Of a stretch of 64,000 nt of DNA, positions 1,108 through 48,539 are shown piece by piece. Each line of letters opens with the position of its first letter. The first letter of the stretch is position 1. The DNA is from Cliona cf. orientalis (lineage: Eukaryota; Porifera; Demospongiae; Clionaida; Clionaidae). The translations under genes and the position numbers were made by a program. The stretch is taken from positions 4,822,135 through 4,886,134 of the forward strand of contig OZ005692.1 in NCBI GenBank assembly GCA_963930775.1, given 5' to 3'. The notes under the pieces were generated by a model that was not told the DNA's origin, did no database searches, and saw only the letters and a program-made list of their open reading frames with translations.

Positions 1108-4100
1108 ATGGGCAAATTGTCAATGCTACTGACAAGCATAGTAATATTATTGTCCATTATTGAGGCAGTTGCTTCAAGTTTACTATTAACTGAGAATTAT
1201 GTCGCCACCAATAATGGGACTAAATGTTTGGATAAAAATCGATTGCGACACCATTGTCTCAGATTCGAGGAGTATGGAAGGCAACCGGATGAGTATTTCA
1301 CAATATTTTACTTTGAATCTGGTAGACATCTACTGAATATCAGCTTGAAACTGGTACACCTACACAATTTCACCTTTCAAGGTCTGCCAGATATTAATGG
1401 GCTAGTTGTTGTTATTTTCGATGCACTAGTCAGTATCGCTTGGGAGAGTTGTTCAAATATCACAGTTTCTTCTATTGTCTTTACAAAGTTCACTAGTAGT
1501 ATTACATTATTAAGTTTTACAAACACAGTGATGGCCCAGTTGTACAATATTTCAATTGCTAACAGCAATATTACAGTGAAAATGTTAAGTTCAATATGGT
1601 GTTATCAGAGTGAAGTAGTTGTTAGTGATTGCAATTTTATTGGAATCCAGGGATTATTCAGCTCTGCAATGTTTATATTGAAATCAAAAGCTAACTTCAC
1701 TGGGAATAATATATTTATTGATAATACAGCATCGTATGGAGGAAGCTCGTATCTTTACAAGAGCAAGATAATCTTAAATGGAAGGAACATTTTTGCATAC
1801 AACAAGGCCACCACAAATTCCAACTATACTAGAATTTTTAAAGGAAATCGTTTCGTCAGAGGTTCTGGTGGTGCAATCTATTCCAAAGCATCTATGCTTA
1901 CCATCAACCATGCATCTATCTTCATGAACAATTCTGCACAATACAATGGTGGATCGATAGCAGCTGAGGATGGACACATTTTTGTTAAAAGATCATGCAT
2001 ATTAAAGTTTGAAAGAAATGCTGCTCCTTATGGTGGGGCAGTTGCAGTCTATAATGTAACCTCACTCTTGTATGGAAGGGTCTTATTCATTAACAATAAA
2101 GCTACAGTTGGTGGTGGTACACTGATGATGTATAGCAGTGGTATACAGCTGGGGTCTAAAACAGCCATGCATCACAGAATAATGGATAGCAGTAATCTTA
2201 CATTTTTGGGAAATGAAGCTAGAGAAGGTGGTGCAATTAAAGGTATCAGCAGTGTTATATTGATCGTGGTTGATGTCTATTTCATAAACAATAGAGCTTT
2301 TCTTCATGGTGGAGCAATGTTCTTGGAAGGTAGTTCAAGGCTAATGCTATCACCAGCTGTTAACACCACCTGCAGAGAGCAAAGGAGGCGCACTCTATGT
2401 TAAGGATTCTGAATGTTCGTTTGGATCATCTGATTCAATCCTTCCATCAATAGAATGCTTTCTTTTCATTTATGGTGATGAATTAAAAGGAAATGTTTTA
2501 CTGAGATTTGTGAATAACACAGCTGGATCCATAGGTAGCACTCTCTATGGAGGACAACTTGACAAGTGCAGGCTGTATTATAGAACCAGCCGTAGTGTAG
2601 ATAGGTGTGCAGGTGGTAATAAACCCTATAGTGATAACAGTAATGATGCGATCGGAGTATTTAAGAACATTTCGTAAATCATTCAGTTCCAGTCAGCTAC
2701 AAGCATTTCTTCACAGGTAGTGCGAATAAAGTTTTGTCAAGATGGAAAAATATTGGATGATATATACACAAAATATATCAAGTTATATCCGGGAGAACGA
2801 TTCAACGTCACTGTAATTGCATTAGATCAAAATGATTATCCAGTGCCAACAACAATTTCTAACCAGAATGACTATGAAGGTGATGACTTTCAACTTCGTC
2901 CGTCAAGTCAACGCATAGTTTTAAACGATTCGAATTCATGTACCAACATCACCTTTCAAATACTTTCAGTTAAAGAAAACACTCAAAAAATATTTCAACT
3001 ATATTCAAAAAATATTTGTAAGGGCTCTTTTAATAATTTAAGCCTTCAAGTTGACATTTTAGCATGTCCTGTTGGTTTTGAGCTGAAGGATCAAAGATGT
3101 CAGTGTGATAGCAGGCTCTCACAGTTCACACAAACTTGCACAATTTGCAACCATAGTAGAACTTTTAAACGGAACAGAAATAATTTCTGGATATCTAAAT
3201 TGGACACTAATACTTTAATCATTCATGAGTACCGCTGTCCTGTTGACTATTATAAAGATGATAATGATTCAGTAAACGTTACTCTTGAAGATCCGTCAGT
3301 TCAATGTGACTTCAACAGAATTGAAATGCTCTGTGGACGATGTGAAAAAAACTTCGACTTGGCTCTTGGTAGTCTACACTGTATTCCATGCAACAGTAAC
3401 TACCACTCCGCTTTAATTTTGTTTTTTGTATTGGCTGGTGTGATTCTCGTTGCTGTCATTTTTATCCTTCGATTAACGGTTTCTGTTGGAACACTGAATG
3501 GTCTACTCTTCTATGCAAACATCATCCAGGCAAACCATCAAGCATACTTCCCAAGAGTGACAGCAAGAGTGAAATTTTTCACCATCTTTATATCGTTTCT
3601 TAATCTTGATCTTGGGATCGAAATTTGCTTCTATGATGGCATGGATATCTATGCATACTCATGGCTACAGTTCCTATTTCCCTTCTATCTATTGCTACTT
3701 GTTGGCGGCATCATCCTAGCCTGTCGATATTCTCGCTCAATCGCTAAACAAGTGGGTCAGAATCCTGTGGCAGTTCTGGCAACTCTGCTACTTATGTTGT
3801 TCAGTAAAATACTCCAAGCCAGCATTGTTCCTCTCTCCTGGACCCACCTAATTTATTACACTGGTAGTCCTTTAAACGAAACTCGTAGAGTTGTTTGGTT
3901 GTATGATGCAAACATACAGTTTTTCAAGGAGCCCAAACACACTGCTCTTGGATTGTTTGCTATTAAATTTCATCACTTGTCATGTTTGTTTTACCATACA
4001 TTCTCCTCCTATTGACTGGCCACTGGCTTCAAGGTTGCTCCAACTGCATGGTGGATTCTTTCATGGTTGAACAAGATCAAGCCATTCATGGATGCTTATC

Positions 4101-7142: not shown

Positions 7143-8021
7143 TTATGTCTTTCCAGTGTATAACAGCTGCATCGGTAAGAAATGACCACTGAGAGAGCAG
7201 GTAAAAGTGGCCGTAATCATTCGCTTGTCATTCAAGCCTTTTAACTCGACTCTCTTTGTACTTTGCTCTTCAAGTGTCCAGTTGCCTGAGGGAACTAATT
7301 GAAGACCTGTTTGGTCCCAATTCAAAACCAGTTGATCAGGGATTTTGTGTTCAGCCACCATACCCGAAATTTCTGACAGGAATTTGTGTTTTTTGGCTTG
7401 AACCTCACTATTACTAAGAATGCTCGTTTTGGTTGTTGCTTTTCGTTTCACATAGCCCATTCGTTTAAGAATAGAGATTGCCCATCCCCTGGTTAGTGCT
7501 ATATGACCTCCATTCTCAACAAGTAGATTTCTATCCTTGGATGTGACAATACCTTCAGCTGCTGCTTGAACTAGCTGAGCACTCACGGGTGCACCTGTTT
7601 GTCTGAGAGCTCGAATATACTTTTGGACATCTCGATCAAGATCTTCTCCCAATGTTAGAGGCCTTCCCCGCTTTTTCATGGGCAGGGTAGTGATTTCACT
7701 GGTGTCATTTTGTTTTGAACGTGTAGCCAACTCGGTTGTATACAAGTTCTTGTACTTTCTGACAGTACTTTCTGGTAGATCACCCAGATCAGTTTTGAAA
7801 TGCCTCCTTGCTGCTGCTGCGCCATTCTCTGCCGCGTATTTGCCAATTTTTGCCCTAGTCTCTTCCGAATGCTTCTCAGGTTTGCGCTTTTTACCCGCAA
7901 TCGAAGTCTCCAATACTGCTGACACTCGTTTGTTGGCCTCCTCGGTTTCCCTCCGCCCAATTCCAGTCAGCTCATGTGTAGGCAGAGCATCCTTTTTCTT
8001 AAAATATTTTAGCAAACTCAT
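7143..8021 (-). mobile_element. pogo-like transposase, 3'-truncated
   Basis: The minus-strand frame begins at the methionine of MSLLKYFKKKDALP (ATG at 8021) and holds the N-terminal half of a Tc1/mariner-pogo type transposase. A basic KKRGRP linker is followed by the conserved YIRALR, NGGHI and VKRKA stretch and by the first catalytic aspartate in LNWDQTG. The frame stops after LLYTGKT, so the second and third catalytic acids are missing. It is clearly related to the intact transposase at 34140-35576, which has the same motifs in the same order, but the two are diverged in sequence. The broken end abuts receptor copy 2, suggesting a deletion or rearrangement joined them. No matching terminal repeats were found. 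Confidence 0.8.
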
Positions 8022-8063
8022 GATTAGCACTGTAGCTACAACGCAACTAGCACTAGCATGCAC

Positions 8064-27387: not shown

Positions 27388-29329
27388 ATGCAATCAGAGG
27401 TGAAACGAGGAGTAGAAGATGAAATCACGTGTCCAATCTGCCAGGACCACTTCCAAGAGCCAAAGATCCTGCCATGCTGTCACTACTACTGTAAGGGATG
27501 CATAGAGAAGCTAGCCCTGAGAGCTGGCGGCCCCAACCAACCCTTCCCCTGCCCAGAGTGCAGGAGTGACACCCTCCTCCCTGGAAATGACCCCAACCAG
27601 CTACCAACGGCTTTCTTTGTCAACCGCATGAAGGAGCTGCTCCACACTAAGATGGAGAAAGCCCACGGAAAAGTGGAGGCCATCTGTGAACAGTGCTCTG
27701 GAGGTAAGGCCACCGCCTTCTGTCGACACTGCACCGAGTTCATTTGTGAGGAATGCATCAAGAGCCATCAAAAGCTGAAAGTAGCTAGCTATTTGGTGGG
27801 CACAAGGTGACAAGCCTGGAGGAGCTGAAGAAAGGAGAGACGAAAGAGATTCTGATCAAGAAGCCCCCTCCTCCAACTTGCAAGGATCACGATGAACAGA
27901 TGAAGATCTACTGTTTCGACTGCAATCGCCTGATATGCCGAGATTGTATCGTCATCGAGCACAAGGAGCACAAGTGAAGAAGGCTGCTCCTACGATGAAG
28001 GAGAAGCTTAGTGAGAACCTTGCCCCACTCAAGAAGATCCAGATGCATGAGTCTGCATGGAGTGACTCAGACTGTCAAATCGACAAAATCAGCAGTTGCA
28101 GAACATGGGGTATCTGTAGCTACTACAATCGAGCAATCATTCAATGAGCTTCACAAAATCATCGAGCAACGCAAGCGAGAGCTATTGGAGAAAGCGGCAA
28201 GTGTGATGAAAGGCAAGCTAGATCGATTATTAATAATAAGTGTCCAAGAGAAAGGGTTTGAGATGGCGTCAGGTATAGTCCAGAGCCTGGTGGATTTTGT
28301 GGAACAGAATATTGAGAATGCAACAGAGAAAGAGCTTATGAGCATCCACACACAGGTGATGAATCGAATCAGTGAGGAGACCAAGAAGCACCAGTGCAGT
28401 AAGGCTGAGCTGGAACCAGTGGAAAAAGCAAATTTGATGGTGGATATGAGGTGTGCAATGGAGATAAAGAAAATTTGCCAAGAGAAGACAAATTTGCTCG
28501 AAATTTTCGTGAATGACCCCTTGATGAAGGATGCAGAAGTTGGCAAACCAGCTGTTATTCAAGTATCATGCAAGTCCGTGAATCCTGTGCTGATTGAATC
28601 AGAGATAATATCTGCAGCAGATGGAACAGTGGTTAAAGCTACAGCACAACAGAAACAAAATGACGTATACCAGATTGAGTATGTACCCAAAGTTCGAGGT
28701 CGACATAAGCTTGAGATAACAGCCAATGGCCTCCCAGTGCCAGGAAGTCCTTTTCCTGTGTTTGTAAAGATCCCTCCCACCCAGCTTGGTAAGCCAGTGA
28801 AGATCATTGGAGGAGTGAAGGGGCCAATACATGTTGCAATCAACTCAGTTGGAGAGCTGTTGGTTGCTGAGGAAGACGGTGATGTATAATAGTAATGGAC
28901 AAAAGTGGAAGGAAATTACAAAGTATATTATATGGTTTTAAGAAAGTACGTGGTATTGCAGTTGACGAAGATGACAATATCTATTTAACTGATTATGGTA
29001 GTGGTAAATTATTCAAATTCAATCGAAATTATGAACTAGTCAAGGAGCTCAACACTAAAACACCCTGGGGGATTACCGTGAAAGACAATATTATGGTGGA
29101 GTCACCAGGTCATTCAACACATCTTCATATTTTTGACCGAGAACTTAACCTTGAAAGGACTATCGCTCTTGAAACAATTGGAGTTAGAGATATAATGGGC
29201 ATTGCAGTTGATGTCGAGCACATGCACCTCTACGTCTGTGACTATAGTTATGGTGGCATCTCTCTTAAATCTCAAGTGCACCCACATACAGCACATCAAA
29301 CATTAAACATAGTCTCAGAAAATCACTAG
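27388..29329 (+). pseudogene. TRIM-type RING/B-box/filamin/NHL protein (broken)
   Basis: The N-terminal part has a C3HC4 RING (CPICQDHF, CCHYYCKGC, CPEC) and a B-box (CEQC, CRHC, CEEC). A second B-box (CKDH, CFDC, CRDC) follows in another frame after a shift near 27800. A stop at about 27976 and a shift near 28050 lie in the linker. The coiled coil and filamin/ABP280-like repeat (VPGSPFPVFV) are open from about 28060 to 28889. A 1-2 base insertion near 28887 (GTATAATAG) creates stops before the NHL region 28895-29329 (GIAVDEDDNIYLTDYG), which ends early. Intact homologues (TRIM2/3/71 type) are E3 ubiquitin ligases with an NHL propeller. Four lesions and a truncated propeller support a pseudogene. 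Confidence 0.8.
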
Positions 29330-31990: not shown

Positions 31991-32629
31991 TACGGATTTA
32001 ATTATCCGCAATTGCAATGCATTTGCACAGCAGTATACAAAGGCTTTCCCTCTCTAGATCTTTTAACTCCTATTATATACTCTTGACACATATCCATACT
32101 TTGAATTTAGTTTTTTTTTCAAGCAAGCCTACACACTAAGCAAAAAAATTGTCCGGAAACCACCATATAATTGAGCTGGATGCATAGTAGAACCATACAA
32201 TGCAAGCAGGCAGCCTAAATTTCAATTTGGGAAAAAAATTTGGTAAAGGTCGTCACATTTATGTGCGCGCGAAGCCCCGCCCCTCACGTAGCGCGTGGGC
32301 GGAAAACATTGCAAACGCATGGCTTCCCTGTACAAACATATGGGGAAACTTCAAAGGGCCGTAACTAATTCTAAGGTGTGAATCTAAATTCCGCTTCCAA
32401 GAAACTTCTAGTTATGACCCATTCTGCATGCTCATATCAATAATTTGTCGTGAATGTTTTCCCAGAGTCTCAAACATTTCTTTACTTTACATTAAAATTT
32501 TTTTTTTTTTTTACAAGGGGACCACACACTAGCAGAAAAAAAGATGGTCCGAAAACCACCAAATAATCGAGCTGGGTGCATAGTAGAGCCATACGATGCA
32601 AGTAGGCATCCAAATACCCATATACCGTA
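31991..32629 (-). repeat. Repeat A copies, minus orientation
   Basis: After about 130 bp of AT-rich DNA, one Repeat A unit runs from about 32128 (CACACTAAGCAAAAAAATTG) to about 32511 and a second begins at about 32524, truncated at about 32620 where the two-gene element starts. Both show the family landmarks in reverse: GGATGCATAGTAG, CACGTAGCGCGTGGGCGG and the CATATG(G)GGAAACTTCAAAGGGCC block. Confidence 0.7.
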
Positions 32630-32884
32630 TAGCTCCAAATTTTCGTGGTTCAAAAATTTCGTGAAATTGCTGAAAATCCCATAAATGAAAATTTTCGTGA
32701 TAAAAATTTCGTGATTGCTACATTTTTTCGTGATTATCGTACCGCCGCGGTGCGCGTGCGGCGCCCGTGCGGACAGTTCATGTTGTCGCCCTGCCCACAA
32801 TTGCACGTGGCTAGGCTCGGCGTTGGTCACGGACTTCCTTGTCGACTGCGCTAGGCAGCTACAGTGTGAAGAGAAAGAAACAAG

Positions 32885-33871
32885 ATGACACGATTCGAGT
32901 CCCAATCATGCGTCAGAGGCTTTCACGTCTACAAGTCTATCTGGACACCCTTCATAGGAGAGACACTTTCGTGTTCTCGGGAGACGACTAATCTTCACGA
33001 TCCGTTTGCTGTGAAGGTGCTAAAGACGGACGAGATAGTCGGTCATTTGCCAAAAAGGATCAGTTCTACGTGCAGCAATTTCATAAGAAAAGGAGGAATA
33101 ATAACATACACAGTCAATGGAGAAAGAAGGTTCTCGAGGGATTTGACACAGGGTGGACTAGAAATCCCATGCCTGCTAACATTTGAGGTCAACGACGAGT
33201 CTCTGATCAGCAAGATAAAGAAAATGCTTGATCAGTGCCAAAAACAAGAGGAAAAATCGGAAGTACCAGCAAAAAGGATCAAGCTAGATGGTAAAGAAAA
33301 TGACAGAAATGAGACCAACGCTGACAAGGAAATTTTGCGCACTGTGTGGTTGAGTTCAAAGGAAGCTCACATTACTCTGTACAATAGTGACAAAGAAGCA
33401 ATCTTGAGAGGAGAGAGATTGAATGACATACACATTTTGTTTGCCCAAACTCTCCTGAAACAGCAATTCCCTGGAGTTCAGGGTTTGAGCTGCACACTGA
33501 CTCAAGACCGTCTTAGATTCGATATCGACAAGGACATCGTTCAAGTCTGCCATGTTCGAAATAACCATTGGATTGTGGTTTCGAATATATTGTCAGAGTC
33601 AAAGCAGATTGATATCTTTGACAGCGTGTACTCGAACATTGAAGAGAACACTGCAGCTCTAGTTAGTGGCATGTTCGACCAGCCTGTTGAACTGAAAGGT
33701 TACCCCAGTTTAGAAAAGCAGAAGGGAAGTATGGATTGTGGGGTTTATTGTATTGCTGTATGTGCGTCTCTTTTACACAGATCATCCATGAATTTTTCTC
33801 AGTCACTTTTACGCCCAAAGCTTATTTCATGTTTTGAGAAGTTTCATGTTTCACCTTTCCCATGCAAGTAG
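32885..33871 (+). CDS. HIRAN domain fused to Ulp1-like (C48) cysteine protease
   Basis: The intact 328-residue product opens with a HIRAN-like region at about residues 8-105 (RGFHVYKSIWTPFIGE, LHDPFAVKV, VGHLPKRIS), known from HLTF/SNF2 proteins as a DNA-end-binding module. A charged linker with KRIKLDGKE follows. The C-terminal half resembles Ulp1/SENP proteases: RLNDIHI, His228 in NNHWIVV, Asp246 in IDIFDSVY, Gln280 and Cys285 in GSMDCGVYCIA. The catalytic set is complete. The ATG at 32885 is the first in frame and lies about 150 bp inside the left CGTGA-motif array. The gene is convergent with the pogo-like transposase, with a 268-bp gap. The likely role is a DNA-binding deSUMOylase-like accessory of the element; that is inference. 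Confidence 0.75.
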   Translation: MTRFESQSCVRGFHVYKSIWTPFIGETLSCSRETTNLHDPFAVKVLKTDEIVGHLPKRISSTCSNFIRKGGIITYTVNGERRFSRDLTQGGLEIPCLLTFEVNDESLISKIKKMLDQCQKQEEKSEVPAKRIKLDGKENDRNETNADKEILRTVWLSSKEAHITLYNSDKEAILRGERLNDIHILFAQTLLKQQFPGVQGLSCTLTQDRLRFDIDKDIVQVCHVRNNHWIVVSNILSESKQIDIFDSVYSNIEENTAALVSGMFDQPVELKGYPSLEKQKGSMDCGVYCIAVCASLLHRSSMNFSQSLLRPKLISCFEKFHVSPFPCK

Positions 33872-34139
33872 GCAGTTCATCATGCATAACACATGTTAAG
33901 TCACTTTTTATTCCACATGTACCTATATAAAGCCCATGTTTATACATAATATTGACGTACATGTACATTGTCATGCAAGTAGTAAAGTCGTCCTTAATAA
34001 AAAAATTTGTGTATACATTATTCAGAACAGTTGTAAAGTGCAGTGTAATAAATCACAACAAAATTCGTAACTTAAACTCAACAAGAAATGAAATTAAGAT
34101 TTAAAGGTAGCTTTAAAACAAGGTCAACAAAAGAAGAGA
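33872..34139. other. Convergent 3' gap between the two transposon genes
   Basis: This AT-rich stretch of 268 bp contains AATAAA-like signals on both strands (for example AATAAAAAAATTTG and GTAATAAATC) and no coding frame. It can serve as overlapping 3' ends. Confidence 0.5.
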
Positions 34140-35576
34140 TTAAGATTTAACACAGTCGAAGATTCCTGTAGCCTTGAAGCCATTAACGACAACTTCAGGA
34201 GTACTCTTGAAGTGGTCATAGAGTTGGATCATCCATCTTGCTCCAAGGGGCTTCATTACACTTAGTTTGAGATCAACAGGCTTGAACTGGCTTGGATTCT
34301 CTTCCATTTGTGATGCAATTTTTTCGGCGTACCATGCTTGGAAGCAGTTGCGAAGAAAAGCTTTTGCAGGCTTATTGACGCTCACGTCCAGAGGCTGTAG
34401 TTTGTCAGTGTAGTTCGGTGGTACTATGACATAGTAGATGTCATTCTTTTCAAGTAGGTTGTATACAGCATCAGTTGTTTGACCATTAAATTCATCGAAA
34501 ATGGCAAGTGCTGGGTGTGTAGCATCTAAGCTGAGCTCTTCTCGTTTGCTTTGAACGTAAGGAATGAAGATTTTTTCAACATAGTCGATCATGGTGCTCT
34601 CATTAGACCAATGATTCGCTGAGAAGGTCAAGTGCCACTGCTTGGGAAAATCCACTGTAGGAAGACTCTTTGTAGTCTTACCCTGGTAGACTAATTGCAC
34701 GGGTAAGAAGTTGCCACTCATGCTTCCACCAAAAACAGCTGTGATCTGTCTCTTGTCTTTCAGACCAACAACCTCCACCCTCTTCGATCCTTCTTTGGAC
34801 ATTGTCCACTCGGATACAGGAACATAGTTGACTCCCGTTTGGTCCCAATTGATAATCAGGCTGTCTGGGATCTCTTCTAGCTGAATTACAGCCTTGATGT
34901 CGAGCAGATACTGATCCCTCAAGTCATCAAAGTTGTGTAAGTTCGGCACATGTTTGGTTATCGCACGGCGTTTGACAAAATCCATCGTCTTCAATAGGTA
35001 CTTTGCCCAGCTCTTCTTGAGGATAATATGACCTCCATTACAATGAAGAGAAGCAGGGTCTTTTCTCTGTAAAATGCCGGTTGCAGCTGCTAACACAATG
35101 GCAGTGTTGACCACGCCTCCAGCATCTCTAAGGGCACGAATGTAGCATTTTATATCAGCTGTCACTGAATCTGGAAGCAAAGAAGGTCGACCTCTCTTTT
35201 TCTCCTCCAATACAACGATCTTCTCCAGCTGACCATCTCTTGCTGCCTTTTTGGTTTCCTTTATCATCGCTTCCTTCCAGTCGTTGACGGTTGTCCATTT
35301 GAGATCAGGAAAGCGGGCCTTGAAATGCCTAATAGCAGCAGATGTTCCATGAAGGGTAGCAACTTCTGCCCTGTCTTTCGACGTGTACTTCTTGTACGGG
35401 CCTCTCTTTCTTCCTTTAGCACCTTCTGCCGTCTGTTCGGTCACCTTCTGAACGTGGTCGTTGGCTGATTCAATGCAAGAAGAAGGAAGCTGTTGGGACA
35501 AAGGTCCTTGAGGATTCGGTAGGCAGGTTTTGCTCGTGCTCGTTTTCTGGAAGTAAGCGTACAGAGTCTGAGACAT
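34140..35576 (-). CDS. pogo-like DDD transposase, intact
   Basis: The frame extends from 35621, but the related truncated copy at 7143-8021 supports the methionine at 35576 (MSQTLYAYFQKT) as start, giving 478 aa. Numbered from 35621, the N-terminal DNA-binding region holds RGPYKKY and a helix-turn-helix (AIRHFKARFPDLKWTTVNDW). A KKRGRPSLL linker follows, then the DDE_1 catalytic domain with Asp260 in INWDQTG, Asp376 in AIFDEFNG and Asp412 in DKLQPLDV. The D-x35-D spacing fits pogo/Tigger enzymes. It has no stops or shifts and lies between the same CGTGA arrays as the HIRAN-Ulp gene. It should catalyse cut-and-paste movement, probably into TA. Confidence 0.88.
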   Translation of the reverse strand: MSQTLYAYFQKTSTSKTCLPNPQGPLSQQLPSSCIESANDHVQKVTEQTAEGAKGRKRGPYKKYTSKDRAEVATLHGTSAAIRHFKARFPDLKWTTVNDWKEAMIKETKKAARDGQLEKIVVLEEKKRGRPSLLPDSVTADIKCYIRALRDAGGVVNTAIVLAAATGILQRKDPASLHCNGGHIILKKSWAKYLLKTMDFVKRRAITKHVPNLHNFDDLRDQYLLDIKAVIQLEEIPDSLIINWDQTGVNYVPVSEWTMSKEGSKRVEVVGLKDKRQITAVFGGSMSGNFLPVQLVYQGKTTKSLPTVDFPKQWHLTFSANHWSNESTMIDYVEKIFIPYVQSKREELSLDATHPALAIFDEFNGQTTDAVYNLLEKNDIYYVIVPPNYTDKLQPLDVSVNKPAKAFLRNCFQAWYAEKIASQMEENPSQFKPVDLKLSVMKPLGARWMIQLYDHFKSTPEVVVNGFKATGIFDCVKS

Positions 35577-35808
35577 CTTTAGCAGCGATTCAACACTTCG
35601 TTTCAGATATGGTTCACACATTCACTTTGCTGTACGCGTTGCGATCGCGATCGCGATGCGCATGTACGTGCACACACCGTAGCCACGCCCACAATAGTAC
35701 TAATTTTCATGAGGAAAATTTTCGTGATCAGAAGGCAAATCACGAAATTCACGAAAATATTGTGCCACGTGGTGTGCGTTATTCAGAAAATTTCTCAAAA
35801 TTGGAGTA
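35577..35808. repeat. Right terminal array and Repeat A remnant
   Basis: From about 35700 the CGTGA-type array of the two-gene element is seen. From about 35778 the sequence TGGTGTGCGTTATTCAGAAA continues into TTGGAGTA, a Repeat A segment that is cut by the TA-targeting element at 35809. Confidence 0.65.
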
Positions 35809-36407
35809 CCGTAGTCTCCCGGGTAAGCGCCCATGGGCGCTCTACCATAACTCGCTGATTTCACCATACTGGGCACTTACCCGGTGTACTGGGCGCTTAC
35901 CATGTGCAAAAATCGAAATAGGCGGGGCCAATTTTGTGTGCGTGGCAGTAAGCTAGACTCGTGGTAAGCGCTCTATATATAGAGCGCATGCATGGAACGC
36001 TTGAAGCGACTGCATGTACCATGAGATGCATAAAAAGAGAAAAGTTTAAACTACACAAGCTGCCAGAGAAAGTTAGCTAGTCATCTGAATCAGAGAAGGG
36101 ATCGAGATCGTCGACATCGTCATCTTCGCCAGCACCCTCCTGACTCTGATCGCCGTCCTCGAGATCCCTCGGGATTTCTTCTCGACGATGATGAAATGAT
36201 CTTCGGACCCATCGACTGCGCTGGAGTTTGATATTGCTATGTATTTGATATTCCTATGTAGAGGCAGTAATCTTGTAAACTTTTCTTGATGGGCGCTTGC
36301 CATGTTGATCTAGGTGCAGTGGCCTACCTGGGCGCTTACTATTCGACTGGGCAAAACAGTTATCTGGGCGCTTAACCGGGAGTGGGCGCTTACCCGGGAG
36401 ACTACGG
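35809..36407. mobile_element. TA-targeting MITE, 599 bp, with subterminal GGGCGCTTAC repeats
   Basis: The ends CCGTAGTCTCCCGGGTAAGC and GCTTACCCGGGAGACTACGG are inverted repeats and each is flanked by TA (35807-35808 and 36408-36409). Removing the element rejoins TTGGAGTA to TAGGTTG, the sequence seen in uninterrupted Repeat A copies, so the insertion is proven by empty sites. At least five GGGCGCTTAC-like motifs cluster near the two ends and probably bind transposase. A second copy in opposite orientation lies in the palindrome (46613-48539). No transposase is encoded. Confidence 0.9.
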
Positions 36408-36878
36408 TATAGGTTGTTCGCTTGCTTTGTGTGGCTCTACTGTGCATCCTAGGTGTGTATGTGGTTTTCTGGACAATTTTTTTCTGCTTAGTATGCACGT
36501 TAGCTTGAAAAGAAAAAAAGAATAGGGAAGAAATTCATGGGGGATTTGGGAGTACTTGGGGGGACAATTTTTACATGGGCACGCAGAATGGGTCGAAACT
36601 AGACCAGACGGATTTTTGATTCACACCTTGTAAATTATGGCCCTTTGAAGTTACCCATATGTTTGTGTAGGAAGCCATTCATTTTCAATGTTTTCCGCCC
36701 ACGCGCTACGTGAGGGGCGGGGCCGAGCGCGTACATCAACGTGACGACCATTACCCACTTTGATCAAAATTGATGTATAGGCTGCCTGCTTGCATTGTAT
36801 GATTATACTATGCATCCAGCTCAACTATGTGGTGATCTTCAGACAACTTTTTTCTGCTTAGTGTGTGGTCTCCTTGTT

Positions 36879-47662: not shown

Positions 47663-48539
47663 TTAAAGGCATTGTGTCATGCTATAAGCGCTGATTGCCT
47701 GCTAATTGAAGCTGCACGCGCCCAAACGGTAAATGAACACTGGGCGTGGCGGATGGCTGATAAGTTCGCGTGTACATTCAAATCTGCCCGCTGAGGCTCG
47801 CTCTGCTGGGCGTTCGACTTTCTAGGCATCGTGTAGGCTCTCGATCCTATACTTATCAGTTTTCTTACTCTTTAGCTGTCCATAACCGAAGATTGTAGGC
47901 TTCTCAACTCGACCGTCGCGAATGTCCTCTGCGCTGCACGTGTTCGATCTCCGCGTACTTCCGTAAACTATACCGTGATATTGGGCGCGCCCGTACTTCC
48001 TGTGCCCACTTTAATTGAATTTTTGAACTAATGAGCTCATTACGAAGCAATTAGGCCTTATGTATGGACACAATGCCTTTAAGCGCCCAGATAACTGTTT
48101 TGCCCAGTCGAATAGTAAGCGCCCAGGTAGGCCACTGCACCTAGATCAACATGGCAAGCGCCCATCAAGAAAAGTTTACAAGATCACTGCCTCTACATAG
48201 GAATATCAAATACATAGCAATATCAAACTCCAGCGCAGTCGATGGGTCCGAAGATCATTTCATCATCGTCGAGAAGAAATCCCGAGGGATCTCGAGGACG
48301 GCGATCAGAGTCAGCTGGCGAAGATGACGATGTCGACGATCTCGATCCCTTCTCTGATTCAGATGATTTCTCTGGCAGCTTGTGTAGTTTAAACTTTTCT
48401 CTTTTTATGCATCTCATGGTACATGCAGTCGCTTCAAGCGTTCCATGCATGCGCTCTATATAGAGCGCTTACTACGAGTCTAGCTTACTGCCACGCCCAC
48501 AAAATTGGCCCCGCCTATTTCGATTTTTGCACATGGTAA
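47381..48539. other. Spacer of the giant palindrome (1,159 bp)
   Basis: The spacer contains the last part of the TTAA element (47381-47662), the second TTAA element (47667-48078) and most of the TA element (48083-48539). The inner junction is precise: at 48540 the sequence switches from ACATGGTAA of the TA element to CTAATTAAGCATGTGGG, the middle of the TTAA element in reverse. Confidence 0.9.
47667..48078. mobile_element. Second TTAA-targeting element, 412 bp, AGGCATTGTGTC ends
   Basis: AGGCATTGTGTC and GACACAATGCCT form the ends, with TTAA at 47663-47666 and 48079-48082. The AGG start after TTAA resembles T2/Kolobok-type miniature elements. It shares the TTAA with the neighbouring element, so the two sit side by side in one TTAA site of the TA element. 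No coding capacity. Confidence 0.85.

Follow-up and report, generated by a model that had tools for sequence, protein, structure and literature searches.

The window, a 64,000-nucleotide stretch of the genome of the sponge Cliona cf. orientalis, almost certainly contains a pogo-superfamily cut-and-paste transposon with two genes. This single transposon consists of two intact, convergent open reading frames, one for a protein that joins a HIRAN domain to an Ulp1-like protease domain and one for a DD35D pogo-type transposase. In related copies, both genes are enclosed by the same TA-flanked inverted repeats and have recently been copied as a pair, and HIRAN is found repeatedly next to pogo-like transposases from several lineages. 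For cut-and-paste elements of the pogo/mariner kind, the transposase is generally considered the sole protein required. A recurrent second gene, likely DNA-end-binding and at times coupled to a SUMO protease, would imply that some such elements bring their own break handling or counter host control. We give an even chance to the full reading, in which the element is a pogo-superfamily transposon and its second gene, which encodes HIRAN joined in this copy to a cysteine protease of Ulp1/SENP type, has a role in handling DNA ends.

Table 1. Features of the two-gene element, in window coordinates.
Feature	Position	Strand	Basis or remark
TA target-site dinucleotide, left	32623..32624		TA precedes the left end in 15/17 short copies
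Left terminal inverted repeat (CCGTATAGCTCCAAATTTTCGTGG...) with TTTTCGTGA motifs	32625..32712	+	Matches short-copy right ends, opposite strand
HIRAN-Ulp1-like gene, single ORF, 328 aa	32885..33871	+	ORF call, Pfam, alignment of relatives
HIRAN domain, aa 24-73	32954..33103	+	Pfam; HLTF HIRAN structures in PDB profile search
Peptidase_C48-like catalytic domain, aa 219-313	33539..33823	+	Pfam, alignment, SENP1 in PDB profile search
Gap between convergent genes	33872..34139		AATAAA (plus strand) and TTTATT (minus-strand signal)
Pogo-type transposase, 493 aa, DD35D (Asp260, Asp376, Asp412)	34140..35621	-	ORF call, Pfam
DDE_1 domain, aa 291-439	34305..34751	-	Pfam
Right end retained by short copies: transposase ORF start and subterminal repeat	35391..35769		Homology ends at 35769
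Sequence replacing the last ~20 bp expected of the right inverted repeat	35770..35806		Damaged right terminus

The layout in Table 1 agrees with the original prediction that both genes are intact and converge with a 268-bp gap. Within the gap, AATAAA occurs at 33996 and 34047 on the plus strand and TTTATT, a minus-strand signal, at 33907, so that the 3' ends of both genes could overlap. The unit proposed at 32630-35775 stands as one element with both genes; its ends do not, as the left boundary is at 32625 and homology on the right reaches only 35769. The window copy agrees with its own short copies up to that position and then diverges, so it has intact genes but a damaged right terminus. A decayed right end is retained at the corresponding place in the C2 copy. 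The motif TTTTCGTGA has five sites in the window (0.49 expected), one at 28504 and four inside the two ends of the element, where they are parts of a longer imperfect terminal inverted repeat. The genes had also been described as lying between matching motif arrays; the motifs are indeed found in both ends, but the right terminus is incomplete.

We sought copies in the same 217-Mb genome. Nine related two-gene loci, selected for holding both genes, were joined, and all nine lie between TA-CCGTA inverted repeats (on both sides by a strict finder in eight, and from an arm listing in the ninth). The C4a copy is 99.84% identical to C18 and 99.52% identical to C8 over 3117 bp, with unrelated flanks, and C5 and C6b are 97.16% identical over 2993 bp. 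Homology between two-gene copies stops at the inverted repeats. Three near-identical 3.1-kb copies with unrelated flanks indicate that both genes move together. Elements with both frames open are present in this genome, and with the recent near-identical copies they make the role of the second gene directly testable. At least 33 short copies consist of the two ends only, with both genes missing. TA follows the right end in 16 of the 16 short copies that are readable there; the window copy can be read at its left end only. For 16 of 17 short copies, the right end matches, on the opposite strand and at 74-90%, the left inverted repeat of the window copy or just the outer portion of it. Recurrence of both genes between the same ends with TA, which the original prediction proposed to look for, is found in other copies, and the same ends without the HIRAN-Ulp gene are seen only in short deletion derivatives that have neither gene.

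Genome-wide, a DDE_1/pogo-like transposase lies within 1.6 kb of 44 of the 122 HIRAN loci, against a mean of 0.5 and a maximum of 4 in 1000 shuffles; none of the 122 is near a Tc1/mariner DDE_3 (150 scored hits). Conversely, 78 of the 122 HIRAN loci have no transposase, and 136 of the 182 transposase loci no HIRAN, within the same distance. Several lineages of transposase are represented among the 44 clusters, in three gene orders, and the genes converge in 37. Fifteen clusters include a C48 hit and 29 have HIRAN alone, so HIRAN is the commoner companion of the transposase, and we dropped the notion of HIRAN-Ulp as a fixed unit. HIRAN distances correlate with transposase distances (Mantel r 0.84, 16 elements, P 1e-4), as do C48 distances (r 0.89, 9 elements). 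HIRAN also lies inside inverted repeats in other lineages (L080, L082, L083). Our tree is built from proteins of this genome only, and the nodes that bear on the order of protease gain or loss have 45-76% support.

Some loci have one partner only. For nine transposase-only loci we searched about 2.3 kb downstream, where we find HIRAN in one, a protease remnant in one and neither in seven; the upstream side was read in three of these seven. At C10:4166161, a 194-aa ORF on the other side matches HIRAN weakly, at 18.7 bits, which is below the cut-off. C1:34267895, with one inverted-repeat end seen, falls in the tree beside the HIRAN-bearing L058, of which it is a near copy. At C1:23794273, the terminal repeats around a related transposase are different ones and leave 187 and 265 bp, no room for HIRAN, so HIRAN is not always needed. 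HIRAN-bearing stretches with no detected transposase are L084/L085 (617 bp, 99.2% alike), L048 and L052. L077 and L078 are tandem loci of transposase, C48-like and PHD sequences; these copies are 99.6% alike over 4.1 kb, no inverted repeats were found in the stretch examined, and both loci were set aside. L079 and L086 are nested or unclear and were likewise set aside.

In Pfam, the HIRAN domain of the window protein (E 5e-6, 26.7 bits) is above the curated cut-off of 24.7, and its Peptidase_C48 match (0.0074, 16.6 bits) is below that of 20.7. Three of the four scanned HIRAN-C48 relatives exceed the C48 cut-off (L031, L035 and L038; L043 is below). Among nine relatives scanned singly, HIRAN is above its cut-off in L031, L035, L046, L048 and L081, just under it in L038 and L043, and below it in L083 and L089. 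The His-Asp-Gln-Cys set reported as complete holds up: His228, Asp246, Gln279 and Cys285 are invariant in seven of seven aligned proteins, two of them near-identical copies, and align with SENP1, with a best PDB profile match at E 5.2e-5. For a HIRAN profile of 12 relatives, the top five PDB matches are HLTF HIRAN structures (2mzn, 4xzf, 5bnh; E 0.010-0.015). Asn36 and Asp39 of the window protein align with HLTF Asn91 and Asp94, and the counterparts of HLTF Asn90 and Tyr93 are not conserved. HLTF requires its motor to act, and Pfam finds no motor domain in the window protein or in those of the scanned relatives. NCBIfam gives no match for any of four proteins, and a single-sequence fold of the window protein, run with no alignment, gives no usable model (pLDDT 32). 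A pattern search for the HIRAN-C48 fusion yields 16 stretches in IMG/VR and 44 in prokaryote genomes, and tblastn identifies none of them as a relative. The HIRAN protein is kept across families that are about 40% identical, with dN/dS of 0.24-0.30 in five between-family pairs; among close, often dead copies the values are mixed (0.11-1.95). In both L080 and L082, the HIRAN stretch is interrupted by a stop in the matched frame.

The transposase, predicted to be an intact pogo-like enzyme, bears this out with its three aspartates at DD35D spacing and a DDE_1 match (E 9.9e-11) that is its sole Pfam match above cut-off, unlike the integrase-type or Mutator transposases of Ginger or Mutator-like elements. 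For the transposases of the window element and L046, Pfam detects none of the N-terminal DNA-binding motifs known from pogo elements; it identifies BrkDBD and HTH_Tnp_Tc5 in the L082 transposase, and CENP-B_N and HTH_Tnp_Tc5 in that of L080. A PDB search with the window transposase gives nothing up to E 1.

The presence of HIRAN genes beside such transposases at dozens of sites suggests that they may help the element to handle its own breaks. The transposase would cut at the element ends and insert at TA. HIRAN, by analogy with HLTF, would bind 3'-OH DNA ends at the excised element or the donor break, and would hold these ends or pass them to the repair machinery, which would let the element excise and re-insert successfully. 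Where a protease is attached, as in some families, it might locally strip SUMO from the transposase or from proteins of repair or chromatin. HIRAN binding 3' DNA ends, with the protease removing SUMO there, would be the most likely function, and the end targeting and SUMO removal of the original prediction are plausible. As a mechanism for HIRAN itself, we rate end handling slightly short of even. The HIRAN domain of HLTF binds 3'-OH ends, and an N90A-N91A mutant is impaired (PMC11237066); counting against end handling, the likeness to HLTF is weak by sequence (E 0.01). We propose more tentatively that HIRAN is a dedicated module for break handling that pogo-superfamily transposons acquired long ago. 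One transposon-type HIRAN lineage would have spread through several transposase families and gene orders; it would bind 3' ends at excision and steer repair for the element, with the SUMO protease as an exchangeable add-on that is gained or lost.

The rather less probable alternative is that the second protein counteracts silencing: HIRAN would anchor it on the DNA of the element, and the Ulp1 domain would strip SUMO from repressive chromatin. The invariant protease residues favor this function, and the repeated TTTTCGTGA at both ends could be candidate binding sites, but HIRAN alone is the commoner form (29 of 44 clusters lack a C48 hit). HLTF HIRAN is not known to be sequence-specific. Other, unrelated transposons also carry Ulp1 domains (Ginger1, CryptonF/S, VANDAL KIU genes), and in Arabidopsis VANDAL elements the Ulp1-bearing genes of KIU/VANC type may have a parallel role; against anti-silencing, HLTF HIRAN is described as an end binder (PMC11237066). 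It is unlikely that the HIRAN gene came from the host as a passenger, or serves the host as cargo, with no part in transposition: the relative at C1:23794273 exists without it and short copies need just the ends in cis, but HIRAN co-descends with the transposase and is kept, with invariant residues, across the divergent families, lineages and gene orders described above, at a between-family dN/dS that also argues against a passenger. Still less probable is a protein that regulates or limits transposition, as a self-made repressor or a transposase modifier; the HIRAN-bearing stretches with no detected transposase would fit, but such remnants also arise by plain internal deletion. Two unrelated genes that are neighbors by chance can be dismissed, given 44 adjoining HIRAN loci against 0.5 expected and near-identical two-gene copies in different flanks, which rule this out.

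We compare the element with known systems, in each case with the accessible portion of the source. The pogo superfamily (IS630-Tc1-mariner) includes the Passer, Tigger, pogoR, Lemi, Mover and Fot/Fot-like families and shares with the window element the TA target site, a DDE_1 transposase, a size of 2.4-3.1 kb and short inverted repeats; the DD35D spacing is that of Passer and Fot/Fot-like, and the L082 and L080 transposases carry DNA-binding motifs listed for pogo (PMC7386202). Elements in that survey have one or two ORFs encoding transposases, unlike the HIRAN-Ulp second gene of the window, and its accessible portion does not mention a HIRAN or protease gene (PMC7386202). Ginger1 is also a DNA transposon with an Ulp1-type protease (a C-terminal Ulp1 or OTU), but there the protease is fused to an integrase-type transposase of another family (PMC2836005). 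CryptonF and CryptonS carry an extra C48 peptidase, but are tyrosine recombinase elements (PMC3212892). Ulp1-like genes of Mutator-like elements, mentioned in the original prediction, are exemplified by the KIU/VANC genes of VANDALs; like the window gene these are separate accessory genes that include an Ulp1 domain, and they are associated with evasion of silencing. VANDALs are Mutator-like and found in plants (PMC13317346). KIU is tied to hypomethylation of related elements, and the review calls the Ulp1 function unknown (PMC13317346). HIRAN has no occurrence in the accessible text of these Ginger1, Crypton and VANDAL papers, and a Mutator-element paper (PMC6446971) has none of ulp1, C48, HIRAN or SUMO. 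HLTF shares with the transposon protein the HIRAN core and the residues aligned with Asn91 and Asp94; HLTF is a host motor protein, whereas the transposon HIRAN stands alone or fused to a protease (PMC11237066).

The two intact, convergent genes of the original prediction are present in the window copy, each a single open exon, with 268 bp between them (see table). The HIRAN match in the HIRAN-Ulp protein (a HIRAN domain fused to an Ulp1/SENP-like C48 cysteine protease) scores 26.7 bits, above the Pfam cut-off of 24.7; the C48 match scores 16.6 bits, below the cut-off of 20.7. His228, Asp246, Gln279 and Cys285 are common to all seven aligned HIRAN-Ulp proteins (two of them near-identical copies), of which the other six are 37-42% identical to the window protein. 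The same four residues align in SENP1, a match of the HIRAN-Ulp profile (best E 5.2e-5). The transposase has a DDE_1 match of 42 bits (cut-off 22) and the triad D260, D376, D412, i.e. DD35D. The polyadenylation-like signals of the two genes run past each other in the gap: AATAAA (+) lies at 33996 and 34047, TTTATT at 33907. No second HIRAN match occurs in the window, 32885-33868 being the sole place. A truncated relative of the transposase (about its first 300 aa, 39-46% identical) lies at 7146-8039 (-).

Genes of the window copy and loci in which HIRAN stretches accompany other transposases
Feature	Position	Strand or gene order	Content	Inverted repeats
HIRAN-Ulp ORF	32885-33871	+	single exon, 328 aa	
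Transposase ORF	34140-35621	-	single exon, 493 aa	
L080		convergent with HIRAN	transposase 598 aa, CENP-B_N + HTH_Tnp_Tc5 + DDE_1	24 bp, perfect, TACAGTAGAACCTCGATTATCCGA, TA included
L082		divergent	transposase 449 aa, BrkDBD + HTH_Tnp_Tc5 + DDE_1	93% over 29 bp
L083		same direction	370-aa DDE_1 frame + 159-aa HIRAN ORF	13 bp
	C10:4166161	divergent	194-aa ORF, sub-threshold HIRAN match	78% over 59 bp

Protein searches place HIRAN-Ulp and transposase relatives next to each other at many places in the genome. We joined nine two-gene loci, selected for the presence of both genes, and CCGTA-type inverted repeats flanked by TA surround both genes in all nine (8/9 with a strict finder). Among loci so chosen, the two genes thus recur between matching ends, as had been proposed. 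The copy at C4:4294736-4297850 (C1, C2 and so on are contigs) is 99.84% identical to C18:2295118-2298233 and 99.52% to C8:654988-658092, each over 3117 bp, and the homology ends at the inverted repeats; the C5 copy and C6b, on C6, are 97.16% identical over 2993 bp. Both frames are open in the window copy and at C4:4294736, C5:7069100, C3:2203378 and C1:25252480. The transposase is broken in the C18 and C6:5312747 copies and split in C6:9299472 and C4:7926802, and HIRAN-Ulp is broken in the C8 copy.

In the same genome (216.8 Mb, 149 contigs), a nucleotide-level search that scored 40 of 218 candidates, and whose counts are therefore lower bounds, finds a long damaged copy, C10:5677263-5680258, with identity up to 93%, and a rearranged and damaged one, C2:6951857-6954814. 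At least 36 short loci match all or most of query positions 2762-3140, at least 33 of which also match the left end in whole or part. The 17 short copies read in sequence retain approximately 32622-32829 and 35391-35769 and no HIRAN-Ulp codons. Their termini are, with minor differences, TA followed by CCGTATAGCTCCAAATTTTCGTGG and CCACGAAAATTTGGAGCTATACGG followed by TA, the TA being present at 15/17 left ends and 16/16 readable right ends. These copies look like miniature deletion derivatives, and they suggest that the second gene need not be present in cis. The TTTTCGTGA arrays reported at both ends belong to the terminal repeats, with four motifs in the element and five in the whole window against 0.49 expected. 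As an intact unit, the window copy holds up for its genes but not for its right terminus, which is damaged: the sequence tracks the short copies up to 35769 and then diverges, and a right end, though decayed, survives in the C2 copy where it is expected. Adjoining the damaged end, at 35809-36407, is a miniature element of a separate TA-flanked family with the repeat CCGTAGTCTCCCGGGTAAGCGCCC; another piece lies at 48079-48539 (-), and the family has at least about 40 genomic sites, 40 of 654 candidates having been scored. An inverted repeat of about 470 bp, 75% identical (32131-32602 and 36421-36866), brackets both this nested miniature element and the transposon, an arrangement that would fit their insertion into the centre of a palindromic repeat.

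HIRAN is a commoner partner of the transposase than the C48 protease. Two pooled searches per family give at least 122 HIRAN loci (62 + 97 hits), 75 C48 loci (68 + 20/22) and 182 transposase loci (80/93 + 150), no more than 150 candidates being scored in each family search; 13/93 transposase hits were omitted because they are limited to the N-terminal end, which miniature copies retain. A transposase lies within 1.6 kb of 44/122 HIRAN loci, against a mean of 0.5 and a maximum of 4 in 1000 position shuffles (with the actual lengths of 17 contigs and an assumed 8 Mb for every other contig), and none of the 122 is within 1.6 kb of the 150 DDE_3 (Tc1/mariner) hits scored out of 548 candidates. Chaining neighbours at 1.6 kb gives 44 clusters with HIRAN and transposase (37 convergent, 5 divergent, 2 same-direction), 15 of which have a C48 hit. 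Decay can account for a missing C48 hit, but the hit-to-hit gap is below 460 bp in 15 of the 22 convergent clusters made up of HIRAN and transposase alone, and such a gap cannot fit a protease of about 170 codons. In the complete 2412-bp element C3:2203378-2205793 the transposase is 445 aa long, and the companion ORF, of 116 aa, is HIRAN-only. Against the link, 78/122 HIRAN loci have no transposase, and 136/182 transposase loci no HIRAN, within 1.6 kb. Some of the solitary HIRAN loci appear to have arisen by deletion. Two loci, L084 (2083-2697) and L085 (reverse strand, 2340-2956), have in common a 617-bp HIRAN unit, 99.2% identical and with inner palindromes, that looks like a young non-autonomous derivative retaining the HIRAN frame.

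At L080, L082 and L083, HIRAN stretches share their inverted repeats with transposases of quite different kinds, the L080 and L082 HIRAN stretches having one stop each in the matched frame; the L080 ends resemble Tigger ends. Seventeen columns are invariant across 12 aligned HIRAN sequences, including those of L083 and a further locus, L081. Separately, L077 (C14:2582600-2587000) and L078 (C10:1742000-1746600), 99.6% alike over 4.1 kb, carry a pogo-like transposase of 612-613 aa (HTH_psq + DDE_1) with a C48-like stretch and a PHD-finger frame downstream of it, all in one orientation; inverted repeats were not found in the genomic stretch examined around each. C48-like stretches within open frames of about 1,100 aa recur (G000, e.g. 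C2:13120702, C6:577039, C8:4067351), perhaps as another transposon type.

All counts, trees and alignments of transposon relatives are drawn from one genome. Distances correlate between HIRAN and transposase (r 0.84, P 1e-4, 16 elements), C48 and transposase (r 0.89, 9 elements) and C48 and HIRAN (r 0.92, 12 elements), omitting the near-identical copies C8, C18 and C6b and, from the transposase set, L042 and L044, which are mixed or short. In both transposase trees, C3, L053, L057, L049, L058 and L051, all HIRAN-only elements, group together; L054, also HIRAN-only, lies apart in one tree. HIRAN dN/dS is 0.24-0.30 in five between-family pairs, limited to dS below 1.6, some with members in common, and near saturation (dS 1.39-1.59). 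Among young pairs the values run from 0.11 to 1.95, a spread expected because many copies are dead.

The five best PDB matches of the HIRAN profile are all HLTF (E 0.010-0.015). By analogy, we favour a role in which the HIRAN protein would handle DNA ends during excision or insertion, because Tc1/mariner-type excision leaves short 3' overhangs and the HLTF HIRAN domain binds 3'-OH ends. That binding, and a requirement of the domain for clearing Cas9 from cut DNA, are described in PMC11237066; counting from the NN of its N90-N91 mutant, the invariant Asn36 aligns with HLTF Asn91 and Asp39 with HLTF Asp94. Full-text searches give no link of HIRAN to DNA transposons in the titles and abstract openings of the matches listed (Repbase and subscription journals lie outside this scope), and in PMC5512222 HIRAN occurs within a reference only. 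The chief rival to end handling is that the second gene may be a SUMO-related aid or an anti-silencing factor, since Ulp1 domains occur in Ginger1, Cryptons and VANDAL/KIU elements.
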